The notes under the pieces are model-generated. The model saw only the letters and a program-made list of their open reading frames with translations, had not been told where the DNA came from and made no database searches. DNA of 44,426 nt from positions 17,457 to 61,882 of the forward strand of contig JAQVNN010000003.1 of the NCBI GenBank assembly GCA_028703105.1. The letters are read 5' to 3'. A program made the translations under genes and the position numbers. Positions 14,997 to 24,874 of the stretch are shown one piece after another (positions within the stretch are counted from its first letter, which is position 1; each line of letters begins with the position of its first letter). Source of the stretch: Paludibacter sp. (GTDB lineage Bacteria; Bacteroidota; Bacteroidia; Bacteroidales; Paludibacteraceae).

Positions 14997-15066
14997 CAAT
15001 TTTCATTCTTATCCCCAAAATCGGGGTATTTATAACATAATGAAAGTTCAAATCGCATAACGCCTA

Positions 15067-15074
15067 CAAAAATA
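15067..15074 (-). promoter_or_regulatory. Probable -7 element for the NSS transporter operon
   Basis: On the minus strand, TATTTTTG (15074 to 15067) matches TAnnTTTG, about 70 nt before the ATG at 14996. No well-spaced -33 element was found. Confidence 0.4.
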
Positions 15075-15150
15075 ACATTTTTTTATTATTGCTTACAAAA
15101 TGTAATCCATGAATTCCATCACTTTAACGAAAATTATTCATGAAAATAAT

Positions 15151-15158
15151 TATCTTTG
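15151..15158 (+). promoter_or_regulatory. Probable -7 element for the rdgB-porZ operon
   Basis: TATCTTTG matches TAnnTTTG 24 nt before the rdgB ATG. The -33 position has only a weak match. Confidence 0.5.
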
Positions 15159-15182
15159 CAGTTTGTTGATTTACATTAAGAT

Positions 15183-15764
15183 ATGAGAAAATTAGTTTTT
15201 GCAACAAACAACGCGCACAAATTAGATGAAGTAAAAAGTGTTTCGCGCGACAGCATCGCAATATTAAGTCTGAAAGAAATTAACTGCTTTGATGACATCC
15301 CCGAAACAGCTGACACACTGGAGGGCAATGCCTTGTTAAAAGCACAATACATCTACAATAAATATGGTTACGATTGCTTTGCCGACGACACCGGACTGGA
15401 GGTTGATGCGCTCGATGGGCGTCCGGGAGTATATTCTGCTCGCTATGCTGGTGACGAACAAGATGCCGTGAAAAACATGCAAAAATTGTTGTCGGAGCTG
15501 GATGGTGTTGAAAACCGGAAAGCACAGTTCAGAACTGTTGTTGCATTGATTGAAAGCGGGGAAATACGGTATTTTGAAGGAAAAATTACAGGAAAAATCA
15601 TCCGTGAACCGGCAGGAAAGACAGGATTCGGATACGACCCGATATTTATTCCGGATGGATTTTCACAAACTTTTGCAGAACTTGGCAGTGACCTGAAAAA
15701 TAAAATCAGTCATAGAGCGTTAGCTATAAATGAACTAAAAAAATATTTGAATCAATCCATATGA
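15183..15764 (+). CDS. rdgB: XTP/dITP diphosphatase (non-canonical purine NTP pyrophosphatase)
   Basis: HAM1/RdgB-family pyrophosphatase that hydrolyses dITP, XTP and ITP to monophosphates, keeping deaminated purines out of DNA and RNA. The 193-aa sequence has the N-terminal substrate loop [12 protein letters not shown] (6-17), [20 protein letters not shown] with the catalytic/metal Asp pair, [14 protein letters not shown], and a C-terminal [12 protein letters not shown]. The length is typical. Its TGA overlaps the porZ ATG (ATGA at 15761), so rdgB heads the porZ-glycosyltransferase operon and is translationally coupled to porZ. Confidence 0.95.
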
Positions 15765-18121
15765 TGAAGAGAGGATTATTTACCACGATAATCAGTTTGT
15801 TTGTCGTTGTTGTCTCGGGTCAGACCGACCAACCTGTCGCTATGGGGAAATGGAGAACCCACCTGGCCTACAACAGTGTCACTCAATTAGCACAATCAAC
15901 CAGTAATATCTATGCTGTTAGCGATGGAGCATTATTTTCTATAAGCAAAGAAGATGCTGTTATGCAATTTTACAGTAAAATAAGCGGTCTAAACGATGCT
16001 AATATTACAAAAATCGAGTACGACAAGATAAATAATCAGCTGCTTATTATTTATCAAAACGGGAATATTGACATCATGCATTCCGTGGGCGTAAGCAACA
16101 TCCCGGATTTGCATAACAAACAAATGAGTTCCAGTAAAGGAATTAACGATGTGTTTTTTTTCGGCAAATATGCCTATCTCTCCTGTGATTTCGGGATTAT
16201 GTTGCTAAACATGGAAAAAAAAGAAATTGCCGACACGTATATCATTGGACAGAACTCAACTGAAATAAAAGTATTATCAACAACTATCCACAATAATAAA
16301 ATATATGCTGTCACAGCCAACACAGTATATCATGCTGATGCCGATAACCGCAATTTAGTTAACTATGAATACTGGAAAACTACAACCGGACTGCCCGGAT
16401 CGGGCAATTTTCAGAAGATTTTTACTTTTGCCGGAAAACTGCTCCTGTTGCGAAACGGAGAACTCTATAAACTGGAAGACAACAGCAGTTGGAGCCAATT
16501 ACTCAGCTCAGTCAGCAACATCTCAAGTATTAACTTATCCAATAATAAAATTATTGCTAGCAACGGTTCTAATAGTGTTTATTATTTGAATCAGTCCTTC
16601 GAAATAGGCATGGAAAATCTGCTTAGTTCAAGTGACATCGAGTTTGACCCGGCAAATGATGCATATTGGGTGGCAGGAGGCGCTCTTGGCGTTGTATCAT
16701 TCAAACTTCAGAGTGGAACAGCTCCTATAATCAGTTATTTTAAACCTCAAGGGCCAGCAGTTAATATCCCGTGGAGCATGACCTTCGCCGGAGAGAAATT
16801 ATTTGTAGTCAACGGTGGAAGATGGGGTGCTCAATATTATCGAATTGGACAGGTAATGATATTTGAAAATGAAGAATGGACAAATATTGGTGGAAATCAA
16901 ATTAAATCAATAACCGAATATGATGCGTTAGACTTTATGAATGTTGCTGTTGACCCGGATGATCACAGCCACTTTTTTGTGACATCGTATGGAACAGGGC
17001 TATACGAGTTTAAAAACAATGAGTTTTATAACTGGTATAATCATACAAACACAAATGGTGTTATTCAAACAGTTAGTGATGGAAATCCTTATAATTATAT
17101 ACGCTTAGACGGAGCTGTATTCGATAAAGACAAAAATCTTCTCCTCTGTAACATGAAATCCGGGGTTAAAGTACTCCTTAATAAACCTGCACCAGAAGAG
17201 CCGGAATGGTTTTCTCCTGCAGAACCTTTTTCAAACACCACATTTTCTCTAGAAACTTATGGAGGAATCACTATTTCAAACCAGGATCCAGACCAAAAAT
17301 GGATTCCTTCCTACAGGGGAGGAGGCATTATTGTTTGGGACGACAATGGCACAATAACAGATACAAGTGACGACAAAAGTATTTTTCTCTCTAAATTTCC
17401 AGATCTCGACAATGTAGGCAGTTTTATTAACCCTGTTGATTTGTATTGCCTGACTCAGGATAGAAATGGAGTTTTTTGGGTCGGTTCAGACATGGGACCT
17501 TTACTCTTCTACAACCCATCAAGGGCTTTTGAACCAGATTATACTTGCTCAAGAGTTAAAATCCCACGCAACGACGGAACGGATCTTGCCGATTATTTAC
17601 TTGAAAACGAGAAAATTAAAGCCATCGCTGTCGATGGAGCAAACAGAAAATGGATCGGCACGGCCACTTCCGGACTTTATCTGATGTCAGAAAACGGACA
17701 GGAAACCATCCATCATTTCACTACCTCAAACAGCCCACTGTTGTCAAATGATATATTATCTCTTGCCATTAATCCTGTTTCAGGAGAGGTATTTATTGGT
17801 ACCGGCAACGGATTGATTTCTTTCCAAAGTGACGCTGCTGAACCTACTGATATTTATTCTGATGTATATGCTTATCCAAATCCGGTCAGAGAAAACTACA
17901 ATGGAATTATCACGATTACAGGACTTGTTGAAAAGACCCAGGTAAAAATTACAGATATAAACGGAAATCTTATTTACCAAACAATTTCGAATGGAAGAAT
18001 TGCAACCTGGGATGGCAAAGATGCTCATGGCAGAAAAGTTAATACCGGTATATACCTTGCCATTTGCGCAAACGAAGATGGCACACAAAACACTATAACG
18101 AAGATAATGGTAATCAATTAA
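15761..18121 (+). CDS. porZ: PorZ-like T9SS beta-propeller protein with C-terminal sorting domain
   Basis: A 786-aa exported protein. It has a signal peptide (residues 1-20, ending near VVVSGQ). The mature protein starts with [19 protein letters not shown], followed by repeated propeller blades typical of PorZ ([71 protein letters not shown]). The end is a T9SS C-terminal domain, [19 protein letters not shown], with [19 protein letters not shown] and a basic last strand. Length and order match Porphyromonas PorZ (about 780 aa). That protein sits at the cell surface with PorU, PorV and PorQ and binds anionic LPS during cargo attachment. The start overlaps the rdgB stop; a second ATG at 15764 is equally possible. 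The next gene starts 3 nt after its stop. Confidence 0.85.
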
Positions 18122-18124
18122 CAA

Positions 18125-19720
18125 ATGGATTTAAAAAAAACACCTGCATCCTTTGAAAATAACAACAGGATTCATTTTGTTTTTATTTTCATTTTGTTTT
18201 TTGTTGGTATATTTGTACGATCATCCTCTATTTCAGTTGTTCCTGGCGGCTTAAATCAAGATGAGGCATCAATAGGATACGAAGCGTTTTCGATTATGAC
18301 CACAGGAAAAGACCGTTCAGGAAATTCTTATCCTGTTCATTTTGTGTCATGGGGCAGTGGACAAAATGCTCTATATGCCTACTTATCAATACCTTTTATT
18401 CGAATTTTTGGATTAAATGCTTTTTCCATCAGGATTGTTAATACCATTTTCAGTTGTATTTCATTAATTGTTTTTTATTTGCTCTTTAAATTGATTTTGA
18501 ATAAAAAGAAAGCAATACTTGCTCTTGCAATACTCGCAATTTGTCCATGGAGCATCATGGCTGGCCGTTGGGGATTGGAGGCCAACATCTTCCCTGTATT
18601 ATTCTTAATTGCTGTCTATTTCTTGTTTAAAGGCATTTATTCAGCACCTGGCTATTATTTCCTTTCTTTTGCCATATTTGCAATCTGTCTCTATGCGTAT
18701 GGCACTTCGTATCTTATAATCCCATTATTTTTCATTGCTGTTTTACCCTATTTATTAATAAAAAAGCTTCTCTCTCCAAAACAATTGTTCTTTTGTCTGT
18801 TGATTTTTTTTACAATAGCTACCCCTATCCTGCTTTTTATTCTGATAAATCATTTTGGCCTTAATGAAATTCATTGGGGAAAGATAACTATCCCAAAACT
18901 TGATAGCAACAGGACAACCGTAGTTTTCAATTTGTTCTCTGGTAACATTGCCATTACCCTACTGAAAAACGCCCTTCGACTTATATACATACTTATTCTA
19001 CAAACAGATAACAACATATACAATGCTCTCCCTTCTTCTGGGACAGTCTATCATGTTTCGCTACCGTTTTTTTTTCTTGGGTTGCTCGGCATTTTCAAAA
19101 ACAAGTCATTTATTCATAAACCTTTTCATTACATTTCTTTTTTCTGGTTAATCAGCTCGTTTGCCCTGGGCATTTTTACACATGTTAACATCAACAGAAT
19201 CAATATTATTTTTTTCCCCATTCTCTACTTTACGGTACTTGGTATCCTTGATGCAGGCAACCTAATCAAAACAAAATATAAAAAACAATTTTATCCGTTT
19301 ATAATTGGTATTTATATGTTGTTTTTCGGGGTCTTTACAGGAAATTATTTTCTTTTGGCACAAAAGCAGATTAAACATAACTTTGCTTTTGGACTGGAAG
19401 AAGCTGTAAAATACGCGGAGAAAAATTATAGTCAGGCTCCTGTTTATGTTTCTACAAATACAGTAAATATGCCCTACATTTATATTTGCTTTTATACTCA
19501 AATGAATGCAAACACTTTCAGAGAAAAGGTTGTTTATGGTGAAAATAAGAGTGGATTCAGGGAGGTATTATCGCTTGAACGATATAATTTTGGTAACGAA
19601 CTATTTCGTAACAATGCAATAAATATTATCAGGGAAAATGAAAGTCCCAATATTGATATCAAAAACAGTAAAATTCTTAAATTCGGGAACTTCTATTTGT
19701 GTGATTTATACAACAAATAA
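18125..19720 (+). CDS. Polytopic membrane glycosyltransferase, ArnT/PMT-like (GT-C)
   Basis: A 531-aa protein with about 11-12 transmembrane segments. The first extracytoplasmic loop has the acidic motif GGLNQDEASIGYEAF (the DE typical of GT39/GT83 catalytic loops). The chain WGSGQNALYAYLSIPFIRIF and PWSIMAGRWGLEANIFPVLF resembles dolichol/undecaprenyl-phosphate-sugar-dependent transferases. Such enzymes move a sugar from a polyprenyl-phosphate carrier onto lipid A, LPS, a glycan or a protein at the periplasmic face. Substrate and acceptor are unknown. Its ATG lies 3 nt after the porZ stop, so it should be coupled to porZ. The DNA here is visibly richer in A/T than the flanking housekeeping genes. 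Confidence 0.75.
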   Translation: MDLKKTPASFENNNRIHFVFIFILFFVGIFVRSSSISVVPGGLNQDEASIGYEAFSIMTTGKDRSGNSYPVHFVSWGSGQNALYAYLSIPFIRIFGLNAFSIRIVNTIFSCISLIVFYLLFKLILNKKKAILALAILAICPWSIMAGRWGLEANIFPVLFLIAVYFLFKGIYSAPGYYFLSFAIFAICLYAYGTSYLIIPLFFIAVLPYLLIKKLLSPKQLFFCLLIFFTIATPILLFILINHFGLNEIHWGKITIPKLDSNRTTVVFNLFSGNIAITLLKNALRLIYILILQTDNNIYNALPSSGTVYHVSLPFFFLGLLGIFKNKSFIHKPFHYISFFWLISSFALGIFTHVNINRINIIFFPILYFTVLGILDAGNLIKTKYKKQFYPFIIGIYMLFFGVFTGNYFLLAQKQIKHNFAFGLEEAVKYAEKNYSQAPVYVSTNTVNMPYIYICFYTQMNANTFREKVVYGENKSGFREVLSLERYNFGNELFRNNAINIIRENESPNIDIKNSKILKFGNFYLCDLYNK

Positions 19721-19746
19721 AGTTTTTTAGACATACACGAAGAGGA

Positions 19747-21210
19747 ATGGTGAAAAACAATTATCTCTATTTTTTAGTTACAATAATATACATTGTAATC
19801 AGGATATTAACGATAAACAATTGTTTCTTTTGGGACAATATACAACAAGTCTCGAAGGAAGCACATTGGTTTTACCTTACAAATTTTCGAGATTTTTTTA
19901 TTTCAAAAACAAATGTACCTGATGGAATTTCAGCAACTGGATATCACGCCCCGCTAATGGGCATGATGACTGCTCTGCTCTGGAAAATATTGGGATATAA
20001 GCTATGGGTACATCATCTGTTTATCGCTTTTTGGGCAATCATACTATCGTATAATATCAAAAAAATGTTATCGGTCTTATTTCCGAAGGAATATATTGCC
20101 CTTATTCTGACCATAATATTGTTAGAATCCACATTACTCTCCCAATTTGCTGTCTCTTCTCCTGATTTTATTCTATTTACAGCTTTTGTCATTGCCCTCA
20201 GAGCAATAATTTTCAATAAGAAGGGATTACTTACAATCGCTGTCTTCTTTCTTTGTTGTATTAATATGCGTGGTGTATTTGCTGGAATAATATTATATGT
20301 TTCACACCAATATTATCTCTTTTTACAAAACAATGGTAGTTTTAATTTCAAAAAATCTTTCTCTATAACTTTACCCTACATCCCGACCTTTATAATTTTA
20401 ACTTCATATTATACCTTTTATCTTATTTCTAACGGATGGTTTTTCTCAGATTCATCATATTCTACACATTATATGATGCCGGAAAGTTTCTTCCAGGTTG
20501 TAAAACATTTAGTGGAATTTACTCTTCGATCTGTAGAGAACGGACGTATTGTTATCTGGATACTGAGCTTTTATTTTTTATTCAAATTTGTACGAAGTAA
20601 AACTGTTTTATCACATGAACTGAAGGCATTTATGCTGATGTTTATCTTATTTAACGGGCTTTATTTGATATTTGTCTTTATTTCCAGGATGCCTTTTTCA
20701 TCGAGATATTTTCTCCCTCAATTTTTCTTATTGACAGTGTTTACTTTACATGGTATCACAACATTTTTCACCCCAAAAAAGATAAAGCTTGCTTTTATGC
20801 TGATTATCTTTGCTCAGACAACCGGACATCTATGGATCTATCCTGATAAAATTGCCAAACCCTGGGACACCACATTAGGACATTTGACTTATTACGATTT
20901 ACGTGAAGAATGTTTTGAATACATTGATGCTAATAATATAAACTATAACGATATTTCAGCGGGTTTTTGTCTTTATGGTAACAGGCGTTTCATAGAATTA
21001 ATCAATGAAGATAAAATTGTTCACCATGAAAAAAACCGGCAGTATTTTTTATATTCTAACATTTCAAATGTTGAGGACGAATTAATTAATGAGTTTGAAG
21101 ATGGTAACAAATGGCAACTAATAAAGACTTTTAAAAAAGGGTTTGTCTTCATTAAAATATATAAGAACCTTTCAAATAACACGAATAATAAAGTCGTTAA
21201 TTCCAATTAA
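19747..21210 (+). CDS. Polytopic membrane protein, probable GT-C glycosyltransferase
   Basis: A 487-aa protein with about 10-11 hydrophobic segments and one larger extracytoplasmic loop after TM1 (NCFFWDNIQQVSKEAHWFY to GISATGYHAPLMGMMTALL). An acidic residue in the first loop and a hydrophilic C-terminal domain of about 110 residues fit the GT-C layout. No family signature is strong enough to name the sugar. It follows the preceding transferase after 26 nt. Neighbours (GT-C, GtrA, GT2) support a role in periplasmic sugar transfer. A polymerase/ligase-like role is an alternative. Confidence 0.55.
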   Translation: MVKNNYLYFLVTIIYIVIRILTINNCFFWDNIQQVSKEAHWFYLTNFRDFFISKTNVPDGISATGYHAPLMGMMTALLWKILGYKLWVHHLFIAFWAIILSYNIKKMLSVLFPKEYIALILTIILLESTLLSQFAVSSPDFILFTAFVIALRAIIFNKKGLLTIAVFFLCCINMRGVFAGIILYVSHQYYLFLQNNGSFNFKKSFSITLPYIPTFIILTSYYTFYLISNGWFFSDSSYSTHYMMPESFFQVVKHLVEFTLRSVENGRIVIWILSFYFLFKFVRSKTVLSHELKAFMLMFILFNGLYLIFVFISRMPFSSRYFLPQFFLLTVFTLHGITTFFTPKKIKLAFMLIIFAQTTGHLWIYPDKIAKPWDTTLGHLTYYDLREECFEYIDANNINYNDISAGFCLYGNRRFIELINEDKIVHHEKNRQYFLYSNISNVEDELINEFEDGNKWQLIKTFKKGFVFIKIYKNLSNNTNNKVVNSN

Positions 21211-21261
21211 CTGATGGTTCTGTTTGAAAATCAGGGTCAAAAATAATCAACTTAATCTAAT

Positions 21262-22413
21262 ATGAAACAACAATATAAATTTAATTTATTTTTTAAGAAA
21301 CTCAACAAAAGAGAATTTTGGTTCATTGTTATTCTCTCGGGCTTCTTCTTTAAATTTTTACTGCTTCCTTTTCGTTCAGGAGACTTTAATTTTTTTTTAA
21401 ATCCCTGGATGGATTTTATATCTTCAAACGGCTATTTTTCATCGTTAAAATACCGATTTTACAATTACACGCCTCCATACATTTATATCCTGATTATCCT
21501 TGCTAAAACTGGGATAAATCCTTTATATTCCATAAAATTTATTTCAATCCTTTTTGAATATATTTTAGCCTTTTTTGCCGGTAAAATCATTTACTTGAAA
21601 TATAAAAATCCCTTGAATTTATGGATTTCGCTAGCTCTAATTCCATGGATACCAACAGTTATGGCTAATGGTGCTTTGTGGGGACAGTGCGATTCGATCT
21701 ATTCATCCTTTGTTGTCGCCGGGGTTTATTTTGCCCTGATCAATAAACAATTTGCATCTTGTTTTTCGTTAGGAATGGCTATAGCATTTAAATTACAAGG
21801 GGTGTTTATCTTGCCATTTTATTTCGTTATGTTACTGAGAAAAAAAATCAACTGGTATTATTTTCTGCTGGTACCTCTCATTTTTGTGGTTTCTGTTTTA
21901 CCTGCATGGCTATATGGGAGACCAATGAGTGAACTACTAACAATCTATGTTAATCAGGCAAACAATTATCAGGCGTTGACACTATATTTACCCAATGTTT
22001 ACACCTGGATCAGCAATAATTATTATGAATCTGTAAAAATTGCGGGTATGATTGTTACATTTTTTATTGTCCTGATTGGCGGTATTTGGTTGAGTAATAA
22101 AAAATTTCACTTTTCGTTAGACCAATGGGTTGAACTTGCTTTTCTGAGTGTAATAATCACCCCTTTTCTGCTACCCGGAATGCACGAAAGATATCTATAT
22201 CTGGGTGATGTGCTTGCTTTTGTGTATTTCTTTGTGCTTAGAAAAAATATCCTGTATTCGGTTGGAATAATGTCAATATCATTTTATGCCTATCTTTGTT
22301 GTTCAAGGCTCAAAACAATCTTACCTGTATGGCCAGCATTTTTTATCTATTTATTGATCTTAATCCTTGTAATAGCAGATTTCCGGAAATCTATTAAAAA
22401 CGGAACAACATGA
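21262..22413 (+). CDS. Polytopic membrane mannosyltransferase-like protein (GPI18/GT87-like, GT-C)
   Basis: A 383-aa protein with about 9-10 transmembrane segments. The first loop includes RSGDFNFFLNPWMDFI, and the diagnostic region MANGALWGQCDSIYSSFVV followed by KLQGVFILPFYF strongly recalls Gpi18-like and bacterial GT87 mannosyltransferases. The final conserved patch is FLLPGMHERYLYLGDVLAF. It would use polyprenyl-phosphate-hexose outside the inner membrane. The GtrA gene starts inside its stop (ATGA, 4-nt overlap), so the two are translationally coupled; 51 nt separate it from the previous gene. The sugar and acceptor are not deducible. Confidence 0.7.
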   Translation: MKQQYKFNLFFKKLNKREFWFIVILSGFFFKFLLLPFRSGDFNFFLNPWMDFISSNGYFSSLKYRFYNYTPPYIYILIILAKTGINPLYSIKFISILFEYILAFFAGKIIYLKYKNPLNLWISLALIPWIPTVMANGALWGQCDSIYSSFVVAGVYFALINKQFASCFSLGMAIAFKLQGVFILPFYFVMLLRKKINWYYFLLVPLIFVVSVLPAWLYGRPMSELLTIYVNQANNYQALTLYLPNVYTWISNNYYESVKIAGMIVTFFIVLIGGIWLSNKKFHFSLDQWVELAFLSVIITPFLLPGMHERYLYLGDVLAFVYFFVLRKNILYSVGIMSISFYAYLCCSRLKTILPVWPAFFIYLLILILVIADFRKSIKNGTT

Positions 22414-22796
22414 AAACCAACCCAACTATAAAACAACTATTCAAATTCGGAATTGTTGGTATATCCAACACCCTGATTACTGCAATAGTAATCTGGGGCT
22501 TACTTAAAACACTGCATTTCTCGGATTATACTTCAAATATTATTGGTTATATCGCCGGATTAATCAACAGTTTTATTTGGAACAGACTATGGACTTTTAA
22601 AAGTAAAACGCGTGTTAGTATTACATTTTATAAATTTATAATTACTTTTGCCATATCATATGCAGTTCAACTGGGAAATCTGTATTTATTGCTGAATTTT
22701 ACAACGATTGATCCGTATCTTTGTCAGTTACTCTCAATCGTTGTATATACCATAATCAATTTTATCCTGAATAAATTCTATACTTTTAAATCCTGA
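22410..22796 (+). CDS. GtrA-family membrane protein (putative polyprenyl-phosphate-sugar flippase)
   Basis: A 128-aa protein with four transmembrane helices and the GtrA pattern: LFKFGIVGISNTLITAIVIW at the start, YIAGLINSFIWNRLWTFKS in the middle, and INFILNKFYTFKS at the end. GtrA proteins are thought to flip polyprenyl-phosphate-glucose or related carriers across the inner membrane for GT-C transferases. It overlaps the upstream transferase by 4 nt, and the GT2 partner starts 6 nt downstream. This is the usual GtrA-GtrB pairing, seen here beside candidate GT-C acceptor transferases. Confidence 0.88.
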   Translation: MKTNPTIKQLFKFGIVGISNTLITAIVIWGLLKTLHFSDYTSNIIGYIAGLINSFIWNRLWTFKSKTRVSITFYKFIITFAISYAVQLGNLYLLLNFTTIDPYLCQLLSIVVYTIINFILNKFYTFKS

Positions 22797-22802
22797 TGTA
22801 AC

Positions 22803-23762
22803 ATGAATATGTCATTAAGCATAATCGTACCTTGCTTTAACGAAGAAGCGGTTATCGATGAATCATACAAAAGAATCAGCCGGGTATTATCCGAAATGAA
22901 ATATTTGTCTGAAATCATCTTTATAAATGATGGCAGTTATGATAAAACTGAACAAATTTTGAGCAGTATTGCCAAAACAGATTCCAGGGTAAAAGTAATT
23001 TCATTTTCCAGAAATTTTGGACATCAACAAGCGGTAACAGCTGGATTAAATCACTGTTTTAGTGATATGGCCGTTATTATTGACGCTGACCTTCAAGATC
23101 CTCCTGAACTAATTCCTGATATGATAAGAACAATGAATGATACAGGTGCTCAGGTTGTTTATTGTGTAAGAAAACAAAGAAAGGGAGAAGGGTTCTTCAA
23201 GAAAATAACTGCAAAGTGGTTTTATAGGATGCTGAATTCTCTATCTGAAATAAAACTTCCTGTTGATACCGGAGATTTTCGATTGCTTGATAAAAGCATC
23301 ATACGGGAATTTAATAAATTACACGAAAAAGGAAAATATATAAGAGGCCTGATTAGCTGGATAGGGTTCAAACAAGTTCCATACTACTATGAACGAGATC
23401 CTCGTTTTGCCGGAGAAACCAAATATCCGCTTTCTAAAATGCTTAAATTGGCTACAACTTCAATGCTGTATTTTTCTACAAAACCTTTACGTATTGCCAC
23501 TACAATTGGTTTCTTATCTGTAATACTAGCTTTTGGGTTAACAATTTGGTTCGTTTTAGGTAAAATATTGGGATTTACCCATGCCGATACTGGTTGGACA
23601 TCCCTCTTCGTATTAATCACCTTTCTCGGAGGAGTTCAGCTGATTACCATTGGTATAATCGGAGAATACGTTGGAAATCTTTTCAAAGAAATTAAAAACA
23701 GACCGGAATATATCATTCAAAAAAAGGAAAATTTTGGGGATGACCCCGAAAAAGAAATCTGA
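22803..23762 (+). CDS. GtrB/DPM1-like polyprenyl-phosphate glycosyltransferase (GT2)
   Basis: A 319-aa GT2 enzyme that makes polyprenyl-phosphate-hexose from a nucleotide sugar at the cytoplasmic face. The GT-A domain has SIIVPCFNEE (6-15), IFINDGSYDKT (39-49), SFSRNFGHQQAVTAGL (67-82), VIIDADLQDPPELI (91-104, metal-binding DAD), DTGDFRLLDKS, and RDPRFAGETKYPLSKM. Two C-terminal transmembrane helices follow (about 230-255 and 267-290), as in GtrB/ArnC. It is the last gene of the rdgB-porZ-GT run. With GtrA it would supply the lipid-linked sugar used by the three upstream GT-C proteins. The sugar could be glucose, mannose or another hexose. It is convergent with folE (20 nt gap). Confidence 0.9.
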   Translation: MNMSLSIIVPCFNEEAVIDESYKRISRVLSEMKYLSEIIFINDGSYDKTEQILSSIAKTDSRVKVISFSRNFGHQQAVTAGLNHCFSDMAVIIDADLQDPPELIPDMIRTMNDTGAQVVYCVRKQRKGEGFFKKITAKWFYRMLNSLSEIKLPVDTGDFRLLDKSIIREFNKLHEKGKYIRGLISWIGFKQVPYYYERDPRFAGETKYPLSKMLKLATTSMLYFSTKPLRIATTIGFLSVILAFGLTIWFVLGKILGFTHADTGWTSLFVLITFLGGVQLITIGIIGEYVGNLFKEIKNRPEYIIQKKENFGDDPEKEI

Positions 23763-23782: not shown

Positions 23783-24379
23783 TTAACTCCTCTTTATGAG
23801 ATTCATAAATTCTTCCCTGGTTTTTGCCTGCTGAAATACACCTGTAAAGTCGGAGGTGGTAGTGATCGAATGCTGTTTCTGTACCCCGCGCATTTGCATA
23901 CATAAGTGCTGCGCTTCAAGGATAACCATCACACCTAAAGGTTGCAGCGTTTTTTGAATACACTCCTTAATTTGAGTAGTCATGCGCTCTTGAACCTGCA
24001 ACCGACGTGCATAGACTTCTACAATGCGCGCAATTTTACTTAATCCTGTTATATGATGATTCGGAATATAAGCCACATGTGCCTTACCAAAAAATGGTAA
24101 CATATGGTGCTCACACATCGAATAAAAATCAATGTCTTTGACAATGACCATTTGCCGGTAATCTTCGGAAAACTTAGCCGACATGAGAATCTCTTCGGGA
24201 TCCTGCTCATAACCATGCATCAAAAATTGCATCGCCATTGAAACACGTTCGGGAGTTTTTATTAATCCTTCTCTTTCAACGTCTTCTCCCAATAGCTTCA
24301 TAATTTCTTTATAATGCGCAGCTATCTGAGCAGTTTTTTCCGGGTCGAACGAAACCGGTTTATTGTAATTAAAATCCAT
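23783..24379 (-). CDS. folE: GTP cyclohydrolase I
   Basis: Converts GTP to 7,8-dihydroneopterin triphosphate, the first step of folate/pterin synthesis; the enzyme is a homodecamer. The 198-aa product carries the zinc ligands Cys89 and His92 in [19 protein letters not shown] and Cys160 in [14 protein letters not shown], plus [20 protein letters not shown] and [11 protein letters not shown]. These are all family hallmarks. It is the second gene of a leftward pair, 6 nt after the SPOR-domain gene. folP lies about 20 kb away in the window, so folate genes are not clustered. Confidence 0.96.
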
Positions 24380-24385
24380 TTGTTC

Positions 24386-24874
24386 TTATTTTTCTGAAAC
24401 CGATATCCGGTCTCTTACGGTGTAAGTTTCTTTTCTGAGTGCCGGAAATTTCCTGAGCAATTCTTCTGTAAAACTACGGGCTTCCGGCTGGGTGTGAAAG
24501 TCTCCAATCCTCACTTTCCAGAAGGGAGAACTGTAACTAACGTACACTTTCATATCCGGAAATGCTTCCATCAGCATTTGTTCCATATTGAAAGCTTCTT
24601 CTCTGGCCGTTCGTTGTACATTGCTTGAAAATACCTGTACCCTGTATCCATGTACAACTTGAACACTAGCAGCTGCCGCATTTTCTGTAACCAGTTTTTC
24701 AATCCGTTTATCCTGATGAAATATCACTTCACCACTTCCCGGTTTAACTTTTCCGGAAATCTCACGGAAAACATTTTTGACTGTATCCGGCCGAATGCTG
24801 TCAGGCTTAACTGACTGTGAAAAAATATTGGCTGAAAAGAATATCGTCAGGATAATGAGAAGTAAATGCTTCAT
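24386..24874 (-). CDS. Exported SPOR-domain protein
   Basis: A 162-aa protein with a signal peptide (MKHLLLIILTIFFSANIFSQ). A linker of about 60 residues leads to a C-terminal SPOR domain: VVHGYRVQVFSSNVQRTA, MEQMLMEAFPDMKVYVSY, FWKVRIGDFHTQPEARSF, and ELLRKFPALRKETYTV. SPOR domains bind denuded glycan strands of septal peptidoglycan, so the protein likely acts in the periplasm at division sites. There is no membrane anchor beyond the signal peptide. It precedes folE by 6 nt; the pairing has no obvious functional logic. Confidence 0.85.
   Translation of the reverse strand: MKHLLLIILTIFFSANIFSQSVKPDSIRPDTVKNVFREISGKVKPGSGEVIFHQDKRIEKLVTENAAAASVQVVHGYRVQVFSSNVQRTAREEAFNMEQMLMEAFPDMKVYVSYSSPFWKVRIGDFHTQPEARSFTEELLRKFPALRKETYTVRDRISVSEK

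Follow-up and report, generated by a model that had tools for sequence, protein, structure and literature searches.

In a 44,426-nucleotide (nt) stretch of contig JAQVNN010000003.1 from Paludibacter sp. (Bacteroidales), hereafter the window, whose positions serve as coordinates, porZ, a gene of the type IX secretion system (T9SS), is followed by five co-directional genes that very probably form a decoration cassette of the gtr/arn type. The decoration cassette at porZ is real, recurrent and swappable, and the class of its chemistry is well supported; we infer the acceptor, and the function that we propose, tailoring of the T9SS anchor, is a good and testable proposal. An earlier, sequence-only reading of the window had described a GT-C transferase gene, two GT-C-like genes, a GtrA and a GtrB-like GT2 behind porZ, and the open reading frames (ORFs), profile matches and predicted folds presented below confirmed this composition.

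Proteins and expression of the porZ cassette

PorZ was recognized by NF052228 (686 bits, cut-off 260), PF21544 (over its cut-off) and TIGR04183 (26.3 bits, cut-off 23), and a sequence search of the PDB at E 0.01 returned Porphyromonas gingivalis PorZ (5m11, E 4e-86) as its sole match. GT2 matched PF00535, while its best NCBIfam models, PgfS (267 against a cut-off of 500) and ArnC (160 against 529), both remained below their cut-offs. GTC2 and GTC3 matched neither Pfam nor NCBIfam models at E 0.01. The predicted model of GTC3 (5 sequences, pLDDT 75) resembled yeast ALG6 (E 4e-4) and glycosylphosphatidylinositol (GPI) transamidase chain U (E 6e-4) and, with weaker E values, GPI mannosyltransferase I, PimE and ArnT, with a best TMq of 0.66; that of GTC2 (4 sequences, pLDDT 67) was closest to ArnT (E 4e-4, TMq 0.44), followed by ALG12 and ALG9. 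Both proteins look like GT-C-type transferases, GTC2 on the weaker model.

All seven genes from rdgB, the conserved upstream neighbor of porZ, to GT2 are located on the plus strand (Table 1). By ORF coordinates, rdgB and porZ overlap by 4 nt, as do the end of GTC3 and the start of gtrA, and only 3 nt separate porZ from GTC1, where the porZ stop codon TAA and the next ATG were confirmed on the sequence. Neither a promoter nor a terminator would fit into such a spacer, and a simple scan, which found 9 terminator-like sites against 6.0 expected, placed none between porZ and GTC1; a promoter and a terminator separating porZ from position 18125, a possibility raised by the sequence-only reading, were thus not found. 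Because of this short spacing, which has a median of 11 nt between porZ and the first cassette gene over 30 loci of the genus, a single transcript of porZ and the cassette, as anticipated earlier, is likely. Sigma-70-like sites were not in excess in a simple scan (39 found, 38.8 expected). The motif TANNTTTG, a Bacteroidota-type -7 box, has its sole intergenic occurrence in 15000-23762 at 15151, ahead of rdgB, the remaining nine being intragenic. A stricter two-box pattern, with a fitting upstream box, was found once, at 19355-19391 within GTC1, where shuffled sequences predict 0.6 occurrences; an additional transcription start ahead of GTC2 is therefore possible. A start within porZ that serves the cassette genes is likewise possible.

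Table 1. Genes of the porZ locus and its right flank, in window positions.
Gene	Description	Position	Strand	Profile or structure match
rdgB	Non-canonical purine nucleoside triphosphate phosphatase	15183..15764	+	NF011398, 308 bits (cut-off 272)
porZ	T9SS attachment-complex protein; N-terminal propeller and C-terminal T9SS sorting domain	15761..18121	+	NF052228; 5m11
GTC1	GT-C type transferase (PMT_2)	18125..19720	+	PF13231, 39.4 bits (cut-off 26)
GTC2	GT-C type transferase; ArnT/ALG12-like predicted fold, low-confidence model	19747..21210	+
GTC3	GT-C type transferase; ALG6/PimE-like predicted fold	21262..22413	+
gtrA	Polyprenyl-phosphate-sugar flippase family	22410..22796	+	PF04138, 96 bits
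GT2	GtrB/ArnC/PgfS-like polyprenyl-phosphate sugar synthase	22803..23762	+	PF00535
folE	Convergent gene; closes the cassette on its far side in many members of the genus (not G047, L260)	23783..24379	-
SPOR	SPOR-domain protein; right flank accompanying folE	24386..24874	-

Recurrence behind porZ

Among 48 Paludibacter genomes, 44 had a porZ match at 1e-30 (all except G003, G019, G021 and G052), and downstream DNA was visible in 39, the contigs of G010, G011, G012, G013 and G059 ending at porZ. The first gene downstream of porZ is a cassette member in 34 of these 39 genomes, a figure that joins a scripted count of same-strand cassette families (30/35) with the window, G050 (L084), G040 (L214) and G047 (L260), which were added by hand. 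None of the 1.5-kb flanks of porU (n=30) contained these families. The linkage within the genus is thus beyond chance, and the sequence-only reading, which would have been weakened by an absence of the glycosyltransferase genes from the porZ locus of all close relatives, was upheld on this point. In three of the 34 loci, a gene of another kind than a glycosyl-, acyl- or phosphoethanolamine-transferase comes first: L070 opens with a radical SAM gene followed by GTC3, L082 opens with a methyltransferase followed by GT2b, and L079 (8548-14344) opens with a radical SAM gene followed by an FkbH-ACP-MBOAT acylation module in the place of the cassette. GTC1 homologues lie immediately 3′ of porZ in L036, L042, L049, L068 and L071. 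Based on 17 gtrA matches on porZ-bearing contigs, taken from a longer list, gtrA is located 2.5-5.4 kb downstream and on the porZ strand in 11 of 44 genomes and at least 12.7 kb downstream in G044. G009 and G053 were considered as exceptions or cut loci and rejected as such, their cassettes spanning a contig break (L210, L211).

Beyond the genus, we counted homologues of the families found in the window's genus, a narrow criterion under which unrelated glycan genes do not enter the figures, and skipped ORFs under 80 amino acids (aa) when assigning the first gene, which matters for L092. A further 75 named porZ loci were considered, and 67 of them were usable, the other eight being dropped for having no usable downstream DNA or no porZ ORF of 600 aa. 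A cassette family comes first behind porZ in 7 of the 67, five of which are titled Paludibacteraceae: GTC4 in L089, L092, L102 and, at a distance of 418 nt, L088; GT2b in L104; and EptA in L097 and L112. Among the rest, acyltransferase-3 comes second in L126 (Tannerella sp.), and recO was found in 29 loci and folE in 3. In other families of the order, one of 12 loci carries a cassette gene (recO in 7); in this locus, L056, EptA is located 2 nt behind porZ and is followed by FkbM and GTC5. Because no folE follows the cassette within the stretch read in L056, L104, L112 and L260, porZ rather than folE is the common anchor in these loci; in G016, the reverse is true.

Two other arrangements were observed beyond the genus. 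In L171, a GT2 with 42% identity to that of the window overlaps porZ on its upstream side, and L113 (7084-10344, a Parabacteroides record) carries a gene for a TMEM260-like protein O-mannosyltransferase (PF11028) behind porZ, an unrelated glycan gene that does not enter the above counts.

Exchange of content and the functional unit

Surface-glycan chemistry also fits most of the other genes recognized at the site, of which representatives were scanned: acyltransferase-3 and EptA-like genes, EamA/ArnE-like genes with GT2, a CDP-3,6-dideoxyhexose pathway and FkbH-ACP-MBOAT. We distinguished two modules, GT2b-EamA-(methyltransferase)-GTC4 and GTC3-GTC2-gtrA-GT2, which are joined by the single genes GTC1, GTC5, acyltransferase-3, EptA-like and radical SAM-SPASM. 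GTC4, a gene of the relatives' cassettes without a Pfam match, is labeled GT-C by its length, hydrophobic appearance and position alone. The nearest relative, G055, shares 94% identity with the window genome in folE and recG and 73% in porZ. In the same place it carries methyltransferase-GT2b-EamA-GTC4, of which only GT2b is homologous, and distantly so (38%), to any cassette gene of the window. In the equally near relative G010, GTC4 is located beside folE. On quick trees of 26 of 37 genomes (those with at least two flank genes; L072 forms a long branch), the first-gene label changes 16 times on the tree of four flank genes, against a shuffled mean of 16.1, and 16 times on the PorZ tree, against 16.3. 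Vertical inheritance of the cassette type was rejected, given that these changes match the shuffled means. Taken together, G055 and the label changes show, at the level of gene content, that the position is kept while the content is swapped between species. The cassettes have a GC content of 0.335 against 0.403 in their flanks (n=30; lower in 29); in the window, the five-gene stretch has 0.325, compared with 0.387 in porZ and 0.426 in the flanks.

The porZ-folE interval of G044 (L072 3869-11530 and L219) contains a CDP-3,6-dideoxyhexose set, comprising glucose-1-phosphate cytidylyltransferase, CDP-glucose 4,6-dehydratase and RfbH, each of which exceeds its cut-off. Transketolase halves, which score below cut-off, and a second gtrA accompany the set, and the interval ends at folE after genes that were not scanned. 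The dideoxyhexose and transketolase genes may encode a branched dideoxy sugar. Separately, a gene for a small C_GCAxxG_C_C redox protein, tested with PF09719 in L039 and by similarity elsewhere, repeatedly occupies the position directly before folE, in L039 (8388-8747), L041, L043, L048, L071, L075, L079, L207 and L211, and persists in L075 although the other cassette genes are missing there.

GTC3 homologues (E 1e-8) were detected in 19 of 48 genomes and are downstream of porZ in all 19, although in G016 they lie 17 kb away and near folE. GTC2 is present in 19 genomes, on the porZ contig in 18 and, in G053, on a contig with a GTC3 fragment and folE. GTC4 is present in 22, on the porZ contig in 17, beside folE in G020 and G010, and not placed in G019; elsewhere than at porZ or folE, it was found in G063, with a further 30% match in G058. 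A GT2 of at least 62% identity, a line drawn after a gap had been seen (the next lower match has 41%), occurs in 18 genomes in total, namely in 17 of 19 with GTC3 and in 1 of 29 without (Fisher p=7e-10, which overstates independence, the genomes being related). G053 and G060 have GTC3 without such a GT2, and G045 has the GT2 without GTC3 but with GTC2. Nine GT2 copies are located away from porZ; six of them adjoin gtrA, and the other three genomes (G044, G050 and G009) have gtrA in the porZ cassette. The four surroundings of distant copies that were read (L215 to L218) contain gtrA-GT2 pairs at other chromosomal places, the GT2 being 61-63% like that of the window, and no homologues of the cassette GT-C genes were seen in them. 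Because GT2 and GTC3 co-occur though nine GT2 copies lie elsewhere, the two form a functional unit of the gtr type, beyond mere neighborhood. The families, folds and this co-occurrence support the earlier view that the downstream genes form a decoration unit for lipid-linked sugars. Since GTC3 and GTC2 are at porZ and GT2 copies occur with gtrA elsewhere, the transferases stay at porZ, whereas the donor pair gtrA-GT2 may move.

Similarly, in gtr operons, gtrA and gtrB are described as interchangeable and the third gene as type specific (PMC3259042). The gtrABC serotype-conversion systems of Shigella and Salmonella resemble the porZ cassettes in that GtrA, a GtrB-type GT2 and a membrane transferase are adjacent, in horizontal exchange, in the variability of the transferase and in that the surface concerned is also altered by O-acetyl and phosphoethanolamine modules. 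Unlike them, the porZ cassettes dock behind a secretion-system gene, include several GT-C enzymes each, and sometimes have the donor pair elsewhere. The arn system consists of ArnC, ArnE/F and ArnT and modifies lipid A. Its counterpart here is GT2b-EamA-(methyltransferase)-GTC4, which combines a GT2 with a small protein of the EamA type and a candidate membrane transferase, and the GTC2 model is closest to ArnT; in contrast to arn, no genes for 4-amino-4-deoxy-L-arabinose synthesis were seen in the window cassette. We propose that the cassette works like a gtr/arn system and do not claim membership in the phage gtr family.

Acceptor of the sugar and competing explanations

Based on protein families, GT2 would load a sugar onto polyprenyl phosphate and GtrA would flip the polyprenyl-linked sugar to the periplasmic face, where the GT-C enzymes, judging by family and fold, would transfer it to a surface glycan. 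The cassette would be transcribed behind porZ, as suggested by the 3-nt spacing, and, as the comparison shows, it occupies a fixed docking site from porZ to folE at which whole sets are swapped between species. The likeliest acceptor is the polysaccharide part of the glycolipid delivered by PorZ to the PorU sortase, an assignment to which we give slightly less than an even chance; the full explanation, a decoration cassette tailoring the PorZ/PorU anchor glycolipid, we consider evenly balanced. More tentatively, each cassette may set the type of anchor displaying T9SS cargo, so that the glycolipid on which the T9SS surface proteome is mounted would be switched between species by swapping a cassette encoded and expressed with its receptor, PorZ.

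In P. gingivalis, PorZ is reported to bind anionic lipopolysaccharide (A-LPS) via a phosphorylated branched mannan and to hand it to PorU (PMC8545088); in the literature consulted, PorZ ligands are described for P. gingivalis only. As in P. gingivalis, the PorZ family, PorU (1205 bits, as presence in the window's genome) and cargo with the C-terminal sorting domain (CTD; 30 matches over cut-off in the genome, PorU and PorZ among them) are all present here. A difference is that the other A-LPS synthesis genes are, according to a paper on T9SS evolution, scattered over the genome (PMC7323717). Profile scans revealed no Wbp/Vim A-LPS linking-sugar genes among the five cassette proteins, the rest of the genome not having been searched. 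No report joining porZ with neighboring glycan genes was found in the literature covered, in which subscription journals are thinly represented.

Several results weigh against a role in tailoring the PorZ-borne anchor. Cassette families were found behind porZ in none of 40 loci, in most cases a single one for each genus or family, that were chosen by hand across the phylum among 189 genomes giving a match; recO was the commonest neighbor (13), and a phylum-wide rule was rejected. The comparison of gene order across Bacteroidota suggested by the sequence-only reading accordingly sustained the linkage in Paludibacter but not in the phylum: it is nearly confined to this genus and near relatives. 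Within the genus, five of the 39 genomes have no cassette directly at porZ (G016, G008, G063, G046 and G048); in G046, porZ abuts folE, and G048 has the C_GCAxxG gene alone. Because of these genomes, the cassette is considered dispensable. In G016, GTC3-GTC2 (with C_GCAxxG) is kept beside folE, 17 kb on, and not beside porZ; about 17 kb of largely opposite-strand genes stand between porZ and GTC3-GTC2-folE (L035, L207). Additionally, the cassette label does not follow the PorZ tree.

Covariation of PorZ with the cassette also failed to hold. In partial Mantel tests, whose sets omitted loci without named cassette genes and loci cut within the cassette, PorZ and the cassette were correlated when short flanking genes served as controls (r=0.36, p=0.0005, n=21; r=0.52, p=0.0005, n=17). 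The same approach on neighbors gave p=0.08 for rdgB, no value under 0.05 for folE, SPOR and ispD, and p=0.045 for recG (n=15). With the long, unlinked PorU and rdgB as controls, the correlation was not significant (r=0.16, p=0.06, n=26), and PorU itself was related to the cassette given rdgB (p=0.007). The larger clade alone gave p=0.07 (n=19). The PorZ segments 561-720 and 641-786 alone reach p=0.004; they represent the 3′ end of porZ, next to the cassette, as linkage predicts. Co-evolution of PorZ and the cassette is not shown, the early signal having shrunk once PorU served as control.

These data bear on the rather doubtful alternative that the site is a serotype hot spot, whose cassettes vary the ordinary O-antigen or lipopolysaccharide core, e.g., against phages, with porZ merely lending promoter and position. 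The fading of the covariation under a good control, the reassortment of content as if at random on both trees and the low GC content of the cassettes favor it, and the Shigella O-antigen is reported to be varied by the same three chemistries, i.e., glucosylation, O-acetylation and phosphoethanolamine (PMC3728103). Nevertheless, the identified genes belong largely to one functional class, and each of the transferase families GTC2 and GTC3 is found at porZ alone in all 19 genomes that have it, if contig breaks in G009, G040 and G053 are left out of account. Moreover, the site stays with porZ in the four loci with no folE in the stretch read (L260, L112, L056 and L104), and EptA and GTC5 homologues adjoin porZ in another family too (L056). 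Protein glycosylation, with T9SS cargo or PorZ itself as the substrate of the enzymes in place of a lipid-linked polysaccharide, appears improbable: the EptA-like, acyltransferase-3, MBOAT and dideoxyhexose genes at the site suggest polysaccharide or lipid A chemistry, although the O-mannosyltransferase gene of L113 would fit protein glycosylation, as would Cytophaga hutchinsonii, in which GtrA is reported to be essential for localizing the T9SS cargo Cel9A and the CTD to be glycosylated (PMC11858162, PMC10202324).

With respect to anchor tailoring, a locus joining a receptor and a varying glycan set offers natural pairs of close species, such as the window genome and G055, with similar recG and different cassettes. 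Such pairs allow one to ask what PorZ recognizes, and whether the T9SS anchor varies from one species to another and is subject to the same diversifying pressure that acts on O-antigens.

Some loci differ in porZ itself or in its upstream side. In L083 (G049), a GTC1 homologue (42%) is located upstream of porZ, in the usual place of rdgB. L162 has only two short porZ ORFs. A tandem porZ in L099/L214, which represent one genome (G040), was rejected, as a single porZ is split there into ORFs of 333 and 445 aa (L214 2041-4381). In L040 (4980-9648, G025), a tandem pair of full-length porZ-like genes was found, both over the NF052228 cut-off.

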